Origin: a bacterium
Lineage (GTDB): Bacteria > UBA4055
Assembly: GCA_029559475.1 (NCBI GenBank)
Contig: JAKQBN010000013.1
Location: 1-64,000, forward strand
Direction: 5' to 3'
DNA: 64,000 nt
The notes under the pieces were generated by a model. The model ran no database searches. It saw only the letters and a list, made by a program, of their open reading frames with translations, and was not told the DNA's origin. A program made the position numbers and the translations under genes. Below, piece by piece: positions 49,570-58,497 of this stretch. Within the stretch, counting starts at the first letter, position 1, and the number at the start of each line of letters is the position of its first letter.

Positions 49570-50475
49570 ATGCCTGTTACAAAACTTGAACAAATGTTCG
49601 AAATCCTGAAGTCAAAACCTAAAAAAAGACTCGTTGCCGCTTATGCAATTGATTCTCATACTATAGAAGCCGTTAACGCAGCGGTCGATCTCGGTATAGT
49701 AGAAGGAACACTTGTCGGATCTAAAGCTGAGATAGAAAAAGTCTGTAAGGCTGAAAAGATAGACATAAGTAAATTTCAGATCGTGGATGAGGCTGATGAA
49801 ATGAAAGCGACACAGAAAGCTGTTGCTATCATAAATGAAGGTAAAGCAGATTTTATCATGAAAGGTCTCGTCAGCACCGATAAATATATGAGAGCCATAC
49901 TTGACAAGGAAAAAGGACTGATGCCTCCAAAAGCGATTCTCAGCCATGTAACAGTTGTAGAAGTTCCTACGTACCCGAAACTCCTTATCGTCAGCGACGT
50001 AGCAATAATACCTGCTCCGGATCTTCCCCAGAAAATAGCGATAACCAATTACGTTATAAATACTGCCGGCGTGCTCGGAATTGAAAAACCGAAAGTAGCT
50101 ATGATCGCCGCAACAGAACAGATGTCTGCCGGAATGCCTGCCTGTGTTGACGCGGCAATAATATCCAAAATGTGCGACCGCGGACAGATTAAGAACGCTT
50201 TCGTTGACGGGCCGCTTGCAATGGACGTAGCTATAGATGCAGAAAGCGTGAAGATAAAGAAACTTGTAAGCCCTGTCGCAGGTGATGCCGACTGTCTCGT
50301 TTTCCCGAATATCGAATCAGGTAACGTGTTCTTCAAAACCTGTACGAAATTTGCGGGCGGAGAACTTGCGGCTGTTGTCGTAGGCGCTAAATGCCCGGCG
50401 GTATTAACTTCCAGAGGCGACAGCTCGAAAACGAAAACTTATTCGATCGCGCTTGCCTGCATGATGTCAAAATAA
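49570..50475 (+). CDS. ptb: Phosphate butyryltransferase (Ptb) family
   Basis: PTA/PTB-family ORF: FIMKGLVSTDKYMRAILDKEKGL, LSHVTVVEVPTYPKLLIVSDVAIIPAPDL, NAFVDGPLAMDVAID; adjacent to butyrate kinase. Confidence 0.88.
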   Translation: MPVTKLEQMFEILKSKPKKRLVAAYAIDSHTIEAVNAAVDLGIVEGTLVGSKAEIEKVCKAEKIDISKFQIVDEADEMKATQKAVAIINEGKADFIMKGLVSTDKYMRAILDKEKGLMPPKAILSHVTVVEVPTYPKLLIVSDVAIIPAPDLPQKIAITNYVINTAGVLGIEKPKVAMIAATEQMSAGMPACVDAAIISKMCDRGQIKNAFVDGPLAMDVAIDAESVKIKKLVSPVAGDADCLVFPNIESGNVFFKTCTKFAGGELAAVVVGAKCPAVLTSRGDSSKTKTYSIALACMMSK

Positions 50476-50509
50476 ATATTAATATTAACATAAAAAAACG
50501 GAGTGAGAG

Positions 50510-51586
50510 ATGGAAACAAGAATGATCCTGGCAATAAATCCCGGGTCCACATCTACAAAGATCGCTGTTTACGACGGGGAAAAACAGATTTTTCTGAAAA
50601 ATCTTAAACATACTGTTGAAGAACTCGCGCCTTTCAAAAAGATCACTGATCAGTTCGATTTCAGAAAAGATGTCATTCTGAAAGAGCTGAAAGAAGCCGG
50701 CATACAGCTTGAAACATTAAAGATCATCGTCGGCAGAGGCGGTCTTGTTAAACCGGTTCCTTCAGGAGTGTTTCTCGTCAATGAGAAGATGAAACATGAT
50801 CTTAAGAACAGCAATAAAGAACACGCAAGTAATCTTGGCGGTCTTATAGCTGATGACATTGTAAAATCATTAAATAACGGAGCTGTAGCGGTCATAGCAG
50901 ATCCGGTCGTAGTTGATGAACTTGATGATGTTGCGAGGATATCAGGTCATCCGCTGTTCCACAGAGTATCGATATTCCACGCACTGAACCAGAAAGCTGT
51001 AGCCAGAAAATACGCTAAAAGCGTTACAAAGAAATATGAAGACGTGAATGTAATAGTCGCGCATCTCGGAGGAGGAATTTCTGTAGGTGCTCACAGAAAA
51101 GGCAGGGTAATAGACGTGAATCAGGCTCTTGACGGCGAAGGTCCGTTCAGCCCCGAAAGAAGCGGTACTTTACCAGTCGGAGATGTATGCGCTATGGCAT
51201 TCAGCGGAAAATACACTCATGAAGAAATGAAACTTATGTTCAAAGGAAAAGGCGGATTCGCAGCTTATCTCGGAACTAACGATGCTTATGAAGTTGAAAA
51301 AAGATGCATGGCCGGCGACCAGGAAGCTATCAAGATCCACGATGCGATGATCTATCAGGTCGCGAAAGACATCGGCGCTTATTCTACTGTGCTTAAAGGC
51401 GAAGTTGACGCTATAATCCTTACGGGCGGGATAGCCTACAATAAGGATTTTAACGTGAAGATAGAAGAAAGAGTGGCTTGGATAGCGCCTGTTGTGGTTT
51501 ATCCCGGCGAAGACGAAATGGCAGCTTTAGCCATGAACGGCCTTATGGTGATCGAGAAAGAGATCGATCCGGTAATCTATACATAG
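50510..51586 (+). CDS. buk: Butyrate kinase
   Basis: ILAINPGSTSTKIAVYDGEK, IVGRGGLVKPVPSGVFLVNEKM, VAHLGGGISVGAHRKGRVIDVNQALDGEGPFSPERSGTLP. Confidence 0.95.
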   Translation: METRMILAINPGSTSTKIAVYDGEKQIFLKNLKHTVEELAPFKKITDQFDFRKDVILKELKEAGIQLETLKIIVGRGGLVKPVPSGVFLVNEKMKHDLKNSNKEHASNLGGLIADDIVKSLNNGAVAVIADPVVVDELDDVARISGHPLFHRVSIFHALNQKAVARKYAKSVTKKYEDVNVIVAHLGGGISVGAHRKGRVIDVNQALDGEGPFSPERSGTLPVGDVCAMAFSGKYTHEEMKLMFKGKGGFAAYLGTNDAYEVEKRCMAGDQEAIKIHDAMIYQVAKDIGAYSTVLKGEVDAIILTGGIAYNKDFNVKIEERVAWIAPVVVYPGEDEMAALAMNGLMVIEKEIDPVIYT

Positions 51587-53111: not shown

Positions 53112-55577
53112 ATGAAATACTTGCTTTTAATAATCACAATCCTATATTCATTTTCTTTCGCAGGGCTTATAAACATCAATCCGGATCCCGACGGAGAACC
53201 ATGGTGGATCGGCGGTATATCAGAACCTTCAGAAGAACTCATGCAGAGAATAAATTCACTGCCCGAGCTTAAACTTACCGATATCTACAAACATAGAAAA
53301 GATCCCCTTCCGGTTTCGGTCGATAATTCGTCTCTCCAGTTTTTCAGACCTGTTTTCAGCCAGTCCGGAGGAAGCTGCGGTCAGGCCAGCGGAATAGGAT
53401 ATAACTTTACTTATGAAATGAATTTAGTAAGAAATACTTCAGCTTCAGATTCATCCAACCAATACCCGACTCATCACACATATAATTTTTTAAATGAAGG
53501 CGACGGCGGGATCGGTTCATGGTATTTTGACGGATGGGATATAATAAAGTCAAACGGCTGCCCCGACCTGAAGACTTACGGCGGTATTTACCCTGACGAT
53601 CCGACTTACAGGCATCAGCTTTGGACCGACGGCTATGACAAATATGAAAAAGGCATGAATAACCGTGTACAGGAGCAGTTCACTATCCCTGTCGACACTC
53701 CTGAAGGTTTAGAGACTCTGAAGCAGTATTTAGTCGATCACGCTGAAGGATCGCTATACGGCGGCATCGTGAATTTCGCGGCCGGGATCGGCGGAACATA
53801 TAAAATAGGAAGAATAGCTGCCGGTCTTCCCCATGCTAACGAATACATTATCAGGCAGTGGCATTATGAAATGAACCACGCCATGACTATTGTTGGATAT
53901 GACGATTCTGTCAGAGTGGACTGCAACGCCGACGGAAAATATACGAACAATAAAGATATCAACGGCGATAGCGTTGTAGATATGAAGGACTGGGAGATAG
54001 GAGCTCTTCTTATGGTAAATTCCTACGGTACCGACTGGCCGAATACGGGAATGGGCGGAAAATGCTGGATTTCATACAGAACTCTGGCTATGGATATTTC
54101 AGTTGGCGGAATTTGGGGAAATGCCGTCCATTCGATGAGAGTAAGAGAATCTTTTTCGCCTTCGCTAAAACTAAAGGCAAAGATAGAACACACGAACCGC
54201 TCAGCCTTGAAAGTTTATGCCGGTATTTCGCAGGACACGACTGATACTGAGCCGGCAAACAGTACTTTATTTCCTCTCTTTCTTTATCAGGGCGGTGAAT
54301 ACGGAATGCGCGGGGATAGTGACACACTTGAGTTCGGGCTGGATATAACACCTCTCCTTTCGTATGTTGTGCCCGGACAGCCTGCTAAATTATTCCTCTG
54401 CATCGGCGAGAACGATCCCGGTTCAATTTATGACGGATCTGTTCTTTCTTTCTCTGTCTTCGAAGCTGATTCAACCGAAACTGCATCTACTTCAATGCCG
54501 ATAACAATTAATAATCACGCTACAACGTACATACCCTTGATATTATCGCCGCAATTCGACGCACCTTTAATAACAACAGCGTATTTACCTTCTGCGGTCA
54601 GGGGAGAATTATACTCGACGGTATTGGCTGCTCAGAACGGTACACAACCTTATACATGGTCTCTTTCGATCGATTATACCGAACTGACTAATGATAGCCT
54701 TTTCCCTTATCTGAACGACAGCCTTATTGTTACAAGCGATCCCGATGACGGCATAGCTGAAGTCGATCTCGGATTCGATTTTCCTTTCTACGGGAAAATT
54801 TACAACGGTATAACAGTAAGTACAGACGGCTCGATACTTTTCGGAGATGAATTCGAAAGCGTGCGTAGCGAAGGCGCTATTATGAAAACCCGGACTATTA
54901 CGCCTTACGGCTCCGACCTTATGAGCTACGATATTTACGGTGAAGGAATATTTATTTATAAAACGGCAAATTATGCTGTGATACGATGGCTTACATCTTT
55001 ATATGACATGCCTGAAGTCGACCTTGAATTCGCCGTAAAGCTATCTTCTGACGGAAGGATCGAATTCTTTTACGCTGACGATCTAACAACCGGCCTTTCA
55101 TGGGCGGCAGGTATCTCGGGCGGCAACCCGAACAGCACCGTAATTTCTGCTTTATCCGGAACCGCGGATCCTTCAGGAATGAAAACAGCGTTCGCTCCGG
55201 ATCCTTTCCCATATGGTATAGAGCTGAGTTCAGATGGTATTTTAGCCGGCACGTTATCAGGCGATCCCGGTACATGGTATCTTAACTTTATTGTTAAGGA
55301 CAACAGCAATATTTCATCGTTCAAAACTCTAGAATTCAGGCTTATTGAACCTCTTTTAACACCTTCCGGACTCACGATATCAGTTTCTTATGATAGTGTA
55401 CGGCTTGACTGGATACAGGTAGACGGAGCAGAATCTTACAGCATCTACAGATGCGATCAGCCCTTCGGTTCATTTTCAAAAATTGCATCTTCACCGGATC
55501 TTTATTATATTGACAGCCCGATCTTGGGATATGACAAGCTGTTCTATTATGTAATAGCTGAGAAGTATAAAAAATAA
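53112..55577 (+). CDS. Secreted papain-like (C1 family) cysteine peptidase with dockerin-like insertion and Ig/Fn3-like C-terminal domains
   Basis: Signal peptide; catalytic-like GGSCGQASG (Cys), NHAMTIVGYDD (His), LMVNSYGTDWP (Asn); internal DCNADGKYTNNKDINGDSVVDMKDWE. Confidence 0.82.
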   Translation: MKYLLLIITILYSFSFAGLININPDPDGEPWWIGGISEPSEELMQRINSLPELKLTDIYKHRKDPLPVSVDNSSLQFFRPVFSQSGGSCGQASGIGYNFTYEMNLVRNTSASDSSNQYPTHHTYNFLNEGDGGIGSWYFDGWDIIKSNGCPDLKTYGGIYPDDPTYRHQLWTDGYDKYEKGMNNRVQEQFTIPVDTPEGLETLKQYLVDHAEGSLYGGIVNFAAGIGGTYKIGRIAAGLPHANEYIIRQWHYEMNHAMTIVGYDDSVRVDCNADGKYTNNKDINGDSVVDMKDWEIGALLMVNSYGTDWPNTGMGGKCWISYRTLAMDISVGGIWGNAVHSMRVRESFSPSLKLKAKIEHTNRSALKVYAGISQDTTDTEPANSTLFPLFLYQGGEYGMRGDSDTLEFGLDITPLLSYVVPGQPAKLFLCIGENDPGSIYDGSVLSFSVFEADSTETASTSMPITINNHATTYIPLILSPQFDAPLITTAYLPSAVRGELYSTVLAAQNGTQPYTWSLSIDYTELTNDSLFPYLNDSLIVTSDPDDGIAEVDLGFDFPFYGKIYNGITVSTDGSILFGDEFESVRSEGAIMKTRTITPYGSDLMSYDIYGEGIFIYKTANYAVIRWLTSLYDMPEVDLEFAVKLSSDGRIEFFYADDLTTGLSWAAGISGGNPNSTVISALSGTADPSGMKTAFAPDPFPYGIELSSDGILAGTLSGDPGTWYLNFIVKDNSNISSFKTLEFRLIEPLLTPSGLTISVSYDSVRLDWIQVDGAESYSIYRCDQPFGSFSKIASSPDLYYIDSPILGYDKLFYYVIAEKYKK

Positions 55578-55588
55578 ACGAGGAACGC

Positions 55589-58150
55589 ATGAAAAAATTA
55601 GTAATTGCGCTTATGGTTTTATCAGCAGGCTTAGTTTTCGGCGAGCTTGTGAATCTTAATCCGGATCCGAACGGAGAACAGTGGCTGGCAGGAGGATGGA
55701 AAATACCTTCAGCTGAAGAAATGAAGATCATAGATTCATATCCTAAACTAAGGCTGCCGGAAAAGTATAAAGGTAAAGAAATTCCTTATAAACTGGACAA
55801 TTCACAGCTACAGTATTTCCGGCCGATATTCAACCAGATGGGCGGAAGCTGCGCGCAGGCAAGCGGTGTCGGATATAATTTCACATACGAAATGAATTCA
55901 ATAAACGGCACAAGCGCAAATATTACAGACAACCAGTACCCTACTCACTATACTTATAATTTTCTGAACAGCGGATCAGGTGACATCGGTTCGACCTATT
56001 TCGGAGGATGGGATATAATCAATGCAGGAGGAATTCCGAACGTAACTACATACGGAGGTATGTGGCCGTCAACCGATTCGGAAACCATGCATAAATTATG
56101 GATGAACGGGTTTGATAAATATGAATCGGGGATGAGCAGAAGGATCCTGGAAGTTATTACAATTCCTGTAAACACGCCTGAAGGCCTTGAGACTTTAAAA
56201 CAGTATTTTAATGATTACTGCGACGGTTCCGCGACCGGCGGAATTGTGAATTTTGCAGCTGGTGTAAGCTGGGTCAGTATCAGCGTTCTTCCTGAAGGTA
56301 CCGAGAATGCCGGTCAGTCAGTTCTCTGGAAATGGGATTCATCAGTAAATCACGCCATGACTTTTGTCGGATATAATGATTCTATTAAATGCGATTATAA
56401 CGGCGACGGCAGATTTACGAACGATCTTGACTGGGCCGGCGGAATAGATTCGAACGGAGTTAACATTCCTGACGGCAAAGTAGACATGAAAGACTGGGAG
56501 ATCGGCGCGGTGCTGATGGCTAATTCATGGGGATTAGGCTGGGTGAACGGAGGAAAGATATGGGTCGCCTACAGAACTTTGGCTATGAGTCTTGCTGAGG
56601 GAGGAATATGGACTAATGCGGTTCATACTATAAGGATAAGGGATGATTTCTCGCCGTCACTTTATATGAAAGCGACCATAAGCTTCAGCGACAGGGAGGA
56701 ACTGAAAATTTTCGCGGGTGTTTCATCAGATACGCTTGCCTCTGTACCGGATCATGTTTTAAGTTTTCCGCATTTTAACAGCCAGGGCGGTGAGTATCCT
56801 ATGACAGGTACAGCTAATTCACTTGAAATAGGCCTGGATATCAGTCCCCTTCTTTCATTCGTAGCACCGGATCAGAAAGCAAAATTCTTCATTTGCGTTG
56901 AACATAGCGAGAAAGGTGTTACTTCAGGCAGAGGAAACATTTCATCTTTCTCGGTTATAGACAGCAACGGAACCCAGTATGTAAGCCCGCAGACAAACGA
57001 GACGATTATTCCTAACTCAACCTCATATGCAGGAGTAACAGCCTCTTTCATTTTTGACGCTCCCGAGATCGCTGATGAAACTCTTCCTCAAGCGCTTCCG
57101 GGCATTCAGTACAACCACCAGCTTTCTGTTCAGAACGGAACTGCTCCCTATAAATGGGACGTGATTTGCGATTATTCTGAAACAGAAAATTACGGAGAGT
57201 TCGACGCAACTGCAGATACACCTATAACTTTTACAAACGATGATGACAGTGATGCTGTGATAGAACTGCCTTTCCTGTTCCCGTTCTACGGAGTTCTTTA
57301 CGATAAGGTCACAGTCATAACAGACGGTTCAATAAAGCTGGAAGAAGGGTTCGATTATATCAGGACCGAAGGTGATATAATGTCATTCAAAACTATAACC
57401 TGCTATGGTGCGGATCTTATGATCTATCCGGACCAGGGAGACGGAGTTTTTTATTCCGTAAACGACAGCTGCCTTACTGTAAGATGGAAAACCTCGATGT
57501 ATGATCTTCCTGATGTCAATCTGGAATTTGAGACAAAGATATATTCAGACTCCAGAATTGAATTCTTTTACGGGGATTCTCTGACAACAGGGATAGCCTG
57601 GGCATCCGGAATATCTAACGGAAAAGTGACCGACGCTATAATATCTTCAACTTCCGGCCTGAATGATGCTTCAGTAATGAAAACCGCTTTCGAAACCGAT
57701 CCTTATCCTTACGGCTTAAGCTTGAGCCCGGACGGCATTTTCGGCGGAATTATCAGTACTGCGGGTAAAACATGGAATGTAAAATTCAGAGTTACTGATG
57801 ATAGAAACATTTCAGGAATAAAAGTACTGCCCTTCAGCACTGCTACCGGGATCGGAGACGACGAACCGGCCGGAATTTCGGATTTTATACTTGATCAGAA
57901 CTATCCGAATCCGTTTAATCCTGTTACAACTATAAGATTCGAACTGAAGAACACTATTAATGTATCTCTTCATATATATAATACGCGGGGAGAGAAGGTT
58001 GATACTCTTATAGAGAATGAAATTCTTAAGAAAGGATCTTACAAATATGAATGGAAAACTGCGGAAAGACTTTCTTCCGGGGTTTATTATTTCGGACTTG
58101 AGACCGATAAGGGATACAGGCAGATAAGAAAAATGACTCTGATCAAATAA
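55589..58150 (+). CDS. Paralogous secreted papain-like cysteine peptidase with T9SS type A sorting domain
   Basis: GGSCAQASG, NHAMTFVGYND, LMANSWGLGW; C-terminus FILDQNYPNPFNPVTTIRFELKNT...SSGVYYFGLETDKGYRQIRKMTLIK. Confidence 0.87.
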   Translation: MKKLVIALMVLSAGLVFGELVNLNPDPNGEQWLAGGWKIPSAEEMKIIDSYPKLRLPEKYKGKEIPYKLDNSQLQYFRPIFNQMGGSCAQASGVGYNFTYEMNSINGTSANITDNQYPTHYTYNFLNSGSGDIGSTYFGGWDIINAGGIPNVTTYGGMWPSTDSETMHKLWMNGFDKYESGMSRRILEVITIPVNTPEGLETLKQYFNDYCDGSATGGIVNFAAGVSWVSISVLPEGTENAGQSVLWKWDSSVNHAMTFVGYNDSIKCDYNGDGRFTNDLDWAGGIDSNGVNIPDGKVDMKDWEIGAVLMANSWGLGWVNGGKIWVAYRTLAMSLAEGGIWTNAVHTIRIRDDFSPSLYMKATISFSDREELKIFAGVSSDTLASVPDHVLSFPHFNSQGGEYPMTGTANSLEIGLDISPLLSFVAPDQKAKFFICVEHSEKGVTSGRGNISSFSVIDSNGTQYVSPQTNETIIPNSTSYAGVTASFIFDAPEIADETLPQALPGIQYNHQLSVQNGTAPYKWDVICDYSETENYGEFDATADTPITFTNDDDSDAVIELPFLFPFYGVLYDKVTVITDGSIKLEEGFDYIRTEGDIMSFKTITCYGADLMIYPDQGDGVFYSVNDSCLTVRWKTSMYDLPDVNLEFETKIYSDSRIEFFYGDSLTTGIAWASGISNGKVTDAIISSTSGLNDASVMKTAFETDPYPYGLSLSPDGIFGGIISTAGKTWNVKFRVTDDRNISGIKVLPFSTATGIGDDEPAGISDFILDQNYPNPFNPVTTIRFELKNTINVSLHIYNTRGEKVDTLIENEILKKGSYKYEWKTAERLSSGVYYFGLETDKGYRQIRKMTLIK

Positions 58151-58446: not shown

Positions 58447-58470
58447 TTCATTATTATTTATAGAATAAAA

Positions 58471-58497
58471 AAGAGTGACGCGTCACTCTTTTTTTAT
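58471..58497 (+). terminator. Rho-independent terminator after rpsU
   Basis: AAGAGTGACGCGTCACTCTT then TTTTT. Confidence 0.88.

Follow-up and report, generated by a model that had tools for sequence, protein, structure and literature searches.

Calcium is already known from enzymes of the papain superfamily, among them calpain (family C2) and LapG, whose metal sites differ from those considered here and are not known to be EF-type loops between the catalytic His and Asn. Both are calcium-requiring cysteine peptidases of the papain-like or a related type, as cited in PMC10318531. In the CHAP domain of LysGH15, an EF-hand-like calcium loop with few flanking helices is located inside a papain-superfamily catalytic domain, as it is here; however, LysGH15 is a CHAP amidase with a single loop at another place (D45-D56), and there calcium controls lysis (PMC4022735). 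Cwp84 of Clostridioides difficile (4ci7) is an extracellular C1A enzyme in which the papain fold is followed by a beta-sandwich (lectin-like) domain, the same arrangement as in protein 2 of the present study, and a Foldseek alignment of the two extends over about 500-520 columns, including the peptidase and the lectin-like domains. Its calcium is situated in the lectin-like domain and coordinated by Leu339, Glu448, Lys460 and Asn487, whereas EF-type loops between His and Asn are not reported in the accessible part of that publication (PMC4089489). Finally, type I dockerins (PF00404) share the calcium loop DxNxDGxVDxxD and represent the best Pfam match for many of the inserts described below, but they are domains of about 57 residues with two loop-helix units and are usually terminal, whereas here adjacent loops with a 12-residue period are found inside an enzyme. 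The literature searched, in which most subscription journals lie outside the coverage, contained nothing apt on EF-hand or dockerin inserts in C1 peptidases or on Delongbacteria peptidases, nor any account of a peptidase family that constantly carries a double EF-type loop between His and Asn.

The window, i.e. the whole stretch of 64,000 nucleotides that was analysed, belongs to a draft genome of 2.28 Mb, and the MAGs nearest to it in public databases carry the name Candidatus Delongbacteria. It harbours two neighbouring genes on the + strand with 11 bases between them, which encode the paralogous proteins 1 and 2 (Table 1); a third paralogue (L003) is encoded elsewhere in the same genome. 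Because a strong terminator-like stem follows, the gene pair looks like one transcription unit; the overall number of terminator-like sites is not above that in shuffles. Also in the window, at 49570-51586, a phosphate butyryltransferase-like gene lies beside a butyrate kinase gene, which likely belong to a butyrate or branched-chain acid energy pathway.

Table 1. Features of the peptidase gene pair (positions in the window; residue numbers are those of the individual proteins)
Feature	Position	Strand	Description
Protein 1	53112-55577	+	821 aa; signal-like N-terminus, then a C1A-like peptidase domain carrying the double acidic loop, a beta-sandwich and an FN3-like C-terminus; T9SS tail absent
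Oxyanion Gln84, protein 1	53361-53363	+	QSGGSC context
Catalytic Cys89, protein 1	53376-53378	+	QSGGSC; Cys invariant in 101 sequences
Catalytic His256, protein 1	53877-53879	+	NHAMTIVGY; His invariant in 101 sequences
Double Ca-type loop, protein 1	53919-53996	+	DCNADGKYTNNKDINGDSVVDMKDWE; residues 270-295, D270...E295
Catalytic Asn303, protein 1	54018-54020	+	NSYG; Asn in 97/101 sequences
Protein 2	55589-58150	+	853 aa, paralogue; C1A-like domain, beta-sandwich, T9SS tail
Catalytic Cys88, protein 2	55850-55852	+	101-sequence alignment
Catalytic His255, protein 2	56351-56353	+	101-sequence alignment
Loop insert, protein 2	56393-56500	+	residues 269-304, D269...E304; loop 1 DYNGDGRFTNDLD, loop 2 interrupted
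Private insertion, protein 2 loop 2	56441-56470	+	GIDSNGVNIP; 10 residues, 1/101 sequences
Catalytic Asn312, protein 2	56522-56524	+	NSWG; 101-sequence alignment
Type IX secretion C-terminal sorting domain, protein 2	57902-58123	+	PF18962, TIGR04183
Terminator-like stem	58467-58494	+	12 pairs, then T run; 3' of the two-gene unit

When proteins 1 and 2 were searched as single sequences, no peptidase was matched in Pfam, NCBIfam or the PDB, and neither of them reached the cut-off of PF00112 (Peptidase_C1), for which the best value among 25 relatives was E 0.013. Hence, the proteins are termed C1A-like instead of being filed as Pfam members, and the C1 assignment is based on a profile search, sequence motifs and the fold. 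The profile of the 25 relatives gave weak matches to xylellain and ficins, in which the NSWG motif was the aligned part. In a family alignment of 101 sequences (A2), which provides the numbering for Q58, C63, H230, D244-E279 and N287 used in the following, Gln58, Cys63 and His230 are identical in all members and Asn287 in 97 of them; the catalytic His stands within HAMTxxGY and the catalytic Asn within NSWG. In four members (L103, L109, L111, L113) the catalytic Asn is replaced by Gln or Asp, with Cys and His intact, and their activity is possibly altered or lost. AlphaFold modelled protein 1 from 25 sequences with a pLDDT of 82, and protein 2 from 101 sequences with a pLDDT of 94.7 and a pTM of 0.93. 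Both models were compared with the PDB by Foldseek, and the top matches of both were all papain-like C1A structures, namely cathepsins, falcipains, ficin, xylellain and Cwp84, with TM values that reached about 0.75 when scaled to the target length. By predicted fold and conserved residues, proteins 1 and 2 are papain-fold, C1A-like peptidases with putative activity, so that the preliminary description was right in regarding them as tandem papain-like peptidases, and its assignment of the catalytic His and Asn agrees with the alignment and the fold.

Between these two residues the family carries an acidic insert, roughly 29 residues long, whose consensus after GY[ND]D is SIRYDYNGDGQYTNDIDINGDGIVDMRDWEIGG, followed by a strand leading to NSWG (101 members). 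This position had been proposed before and is confirmed by the 101-sequence alignment; the peptides quoted at that time are present in both proteins, and the coordinates given for them (53920-53997 and about 56391-56500) deviate by no more than two bases from those in Table 1. Ordinary C1 peptidases in the sampled genomes have 8-24 residues from the GY/GW motif to NSWG and lack the loop, in accordance with the short linker previously assumed for such enzymes; an ordinary C1 enzyme encoded in the source genome (L117) is also without it. The ligand-type residues of the insert are conserved as strictly across the family as the catalytic residues: D244, D248, D256, D270, D277 and E279 are each found in 101/101 sequences and N246 in 98/101, the spacer residues are variable, as in calcium loops, and the alignment columns of the insert have an average entropy of 0.97 bits vs. 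1.82 elsewhere. Furthermore, when protein 1 was shuffled 20,000 times, the strict double motif came up only once, which together with the six residues identical in 101 relatives makes clear that it is more than chance. The idea that the insert is unique to this locus was rejected, since it is a fixed trait in the family alignment.

Loop 1 is formed by D244 (position 1), N246 (position 3) and D248 (position 5), with D256 at position 13; its position 12 provides no ligand, being I, L or V in most members and K in protein 1. Loop 2 consists of D256, N258, D270, x, D274 and D277, shows standard spacing if the insertion private to protein 2 is disregarded, and contains the full EF ligand set (1,3,5,9,12) in protein 1 and most relatives. 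The two loops abut with a repeat period of exactly 12 residues. According to the AlphaFold models there is no helix between them, the sole helix being a short one of 3 residues at the end of loop 2. The insert forms the tip of the beta-hairpin between His and Asn and, judged from the strand lengths, probably lies about 20 Å or more from the active site. In protein 2, loop 2 is split by GIDSNGVNIP, its N3 is replaced by Ala, and the spacing as written is unlike EF. The insertion is absent from the other 100 sequences, including a relative with 77% identity to protein 2, and the model confidence falls to about 74-83 there. An assembly artefact is unlikely because the insertion is in frame; possibly, one calcium site has recently degenerated or been remodelled. 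Given this disruption, at least one paralogue may bind one ion only or bind differently. The EF-hand/dockerin spacing claimed for both proteins in the preliminary description hence applies to loop 2 of protein 1, but neither to loop 1, owing to its position 12, nor to loop 2 of protein 2 with its ten-residue interruption and missing Asn.

The likeness to calcium loops was evaluated with an insert-only profile (45 sequences, 33-residue stretch), which is so short that weak individual scores are expected and the evidence lies in the uniformity of the match list. Searched against the PDB at E<=10, it matched 48 chains, which with few exceptions belong to EF-hand proteins or dockerins, and the matches were aligned on the calcium loops of CaBP1, KChIP, polcalcin, calsenilin, GCAP, cellulosomal dockerins and others. 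In Pfam searches with the 45 insert peptides, Dockerin_1 matched 37 of them, while up to 29 were matched by EF-hand models (best value 2.2e-6), and the insert of protein 1 scored 13.8 bits with Dockerin_1 vs. the curated cut-off of 22.9. We rejected a true dockerin domain, since the loops abut without loop-helix repeats, the Dockerin_1 cut-off is not reached, and the source genome contains no Dockerin_1 match above it. What remains of the earlier term dockerin-like are residues typical of EF-hand and dockerin calcium loops. The acidic loops are almost certainly built for holding calcium.

The two-loop family is present in Delongbacteria, Cloacimonadota, Bacteroidota, Chlorobi and others, and represents a large bacterial group that is apparently undescribed. 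More distant genomes encode a sister family with one canonical EF loop, DxNxNxxVDxGE, on an identical hairpin (e.g. HAMTIVGYDDTIWADINKNNVVDPGEKGALRIANSWG). These single-loop C1 peptidases (L209-L218, L225), which occur in mostly large genomes (5-13 Mb), share the flanking distances and a similar downstream domain with the two-loop family but lack the second loop. The distance from His to Gly amounts to about 22 residues without a loop and 37 where a single canonical EF loop with a terminal Glu is present, and it reaches 51 with two loops. In both loop-bearing forms the first Asp is at Tyr+7 and the last Glu at Asn-8 without any gap, corresponding to D244 and E279 in the two-loop form. Because these anchors are gap-free on both sides, the comparison suggests that 14 residues with the second loop were inserted inside the first one, whereby D1, N3 and E12 of the old loop were kept. 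Such an event would explain why E279 is invariant although it lies outside loop 2, and why loop 1 is without a position-12 ligand. Tentatively, and with somewhat less than even confidence, we propose a nested two-ion EF-type site, in which a complete loop would lie inside the older single loop and E279, about 25 residues past the first Asp, would close site 1.

Proteins 1 and 2 alike have a hydrophobic, signal-like N-terminus, and the source genome encodes PorV and PorU and shows 39 matches to T9SS tails. These features, together with the tail on protein 2, make both proteins probably extracellular, in line with the setting supposed earlier. Protein 2 is predicted to be exported likely via type IX secretion; the export route of protein 1 is putative, since it has no T9SS tail. 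In several tandem arrays of Delongbacteria (53112-58150 in the window, L012/L021, L011/L018/L036 and L014/L019), the last gene is T9SS-tailed and the upstream neighbours often end FN3-like and untailed; exceptions are the array L046 with two tail-less copies and L037, an upstream copy with a tail. The tail-less copies might be exported together with their tailed partner. Moreover, some members of relatives' arrays (L016, L029, L030) are split or contain in-frame stops or frame changes, which suggests copy turnover within the arrays.

The His-Asn hairpin is a structural spine of the right-hand domain of papain, and calcium is plentiful outside the cell but scarce inside. We consider it probable that proteins 1 and 2 are secreted C1A-like peptidases in which the turn of this hairpin is replaced by a compact, two-loop EF-hand-like calcium module that stabilises them outside the cell; calcium-dependent stabilisation as such is likely. 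In this proposal, the helix-poor module with its two tightly packed loops would take up two Ca2+ in the calcium-rich extracellular space, site 1 involving D244, N246, D248 and the distant invariant E279, and site 2, nested within it, D256, N258, D270, D274 and D277. Located at the hairpin tip, the module would keep both strands in register and lock the hairpin bearing His and Asn, and the enzyme would become fully folded, protease-resistant and active only once outside. Full folding only after export is plausible because of the calcium difference across the cell boundary, and would mean stabilisation rather than signalling.

The preliminary description had also envisaged an internal calcium switch or a tether. 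As a regulatory on/off switch, the calcium-free loop would misalign His and Asn, as in the LysGH15 CHAP domain and calpain, and keep the enzyme silent until export. The insert indeed sits between two catalytic residues, and for a CHAP domain, which belongs to the papain superfamily, a 12-residue EF-hand-like loop has been published as a calcium switch (PMC4022735). However, the loop is predicted at the hairpin tip, about 8 or more residues from Asn and probably far from the groove, and constantly high Ca2+ outside the cell would leave little to sense, so that we regard a switch as unlikely. Stabilisation is the simpler reading of an insert probably that distant from the active site, compared to a switch or a tether.

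Very improbable in our opinion is a docking or tethering element which, like dockerin and cohesin, would hold the peptidase to a partner or the cell surface: although Dockerin_1 is the best Pfam name by number of members, the loop-helix pair is absent, the genome is without a dockerin above the cut-off, and the surface sorting of protein 2 is already served by a dedicated T9SS tail. Equally hard to credit is a mere solvent-exposed acidic loop without specific metal binding. Calcium binding is predicted only, and protein 2 tolerates a 10-residue insertion, but 101 sequences from several phyla agree without exception at six acidic positions while the spacers vary, and the insert profile matches calcium loops almost exclusively.

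Few enzymes have been studied as well as the papain-like peptidases, and the literature searched gave no description of a calcium module between His and Asn. If true, stabilisation by such a module would explain how a large family of extracellular peptidases in Bacteroidota-related bacteria is kept stable. It would also supply a reliable sequence signature for a group whose members 1 and 2 the Pfam C1 model misses at its cut-off, and a natural series with no, one and two loops in which the building of metal sites into a conserved fold could be studied. Should the nested site be true as well, zero, one and two loops at one papain-like hairpin would represent the stepwise build-up of a metal-dependent fold.
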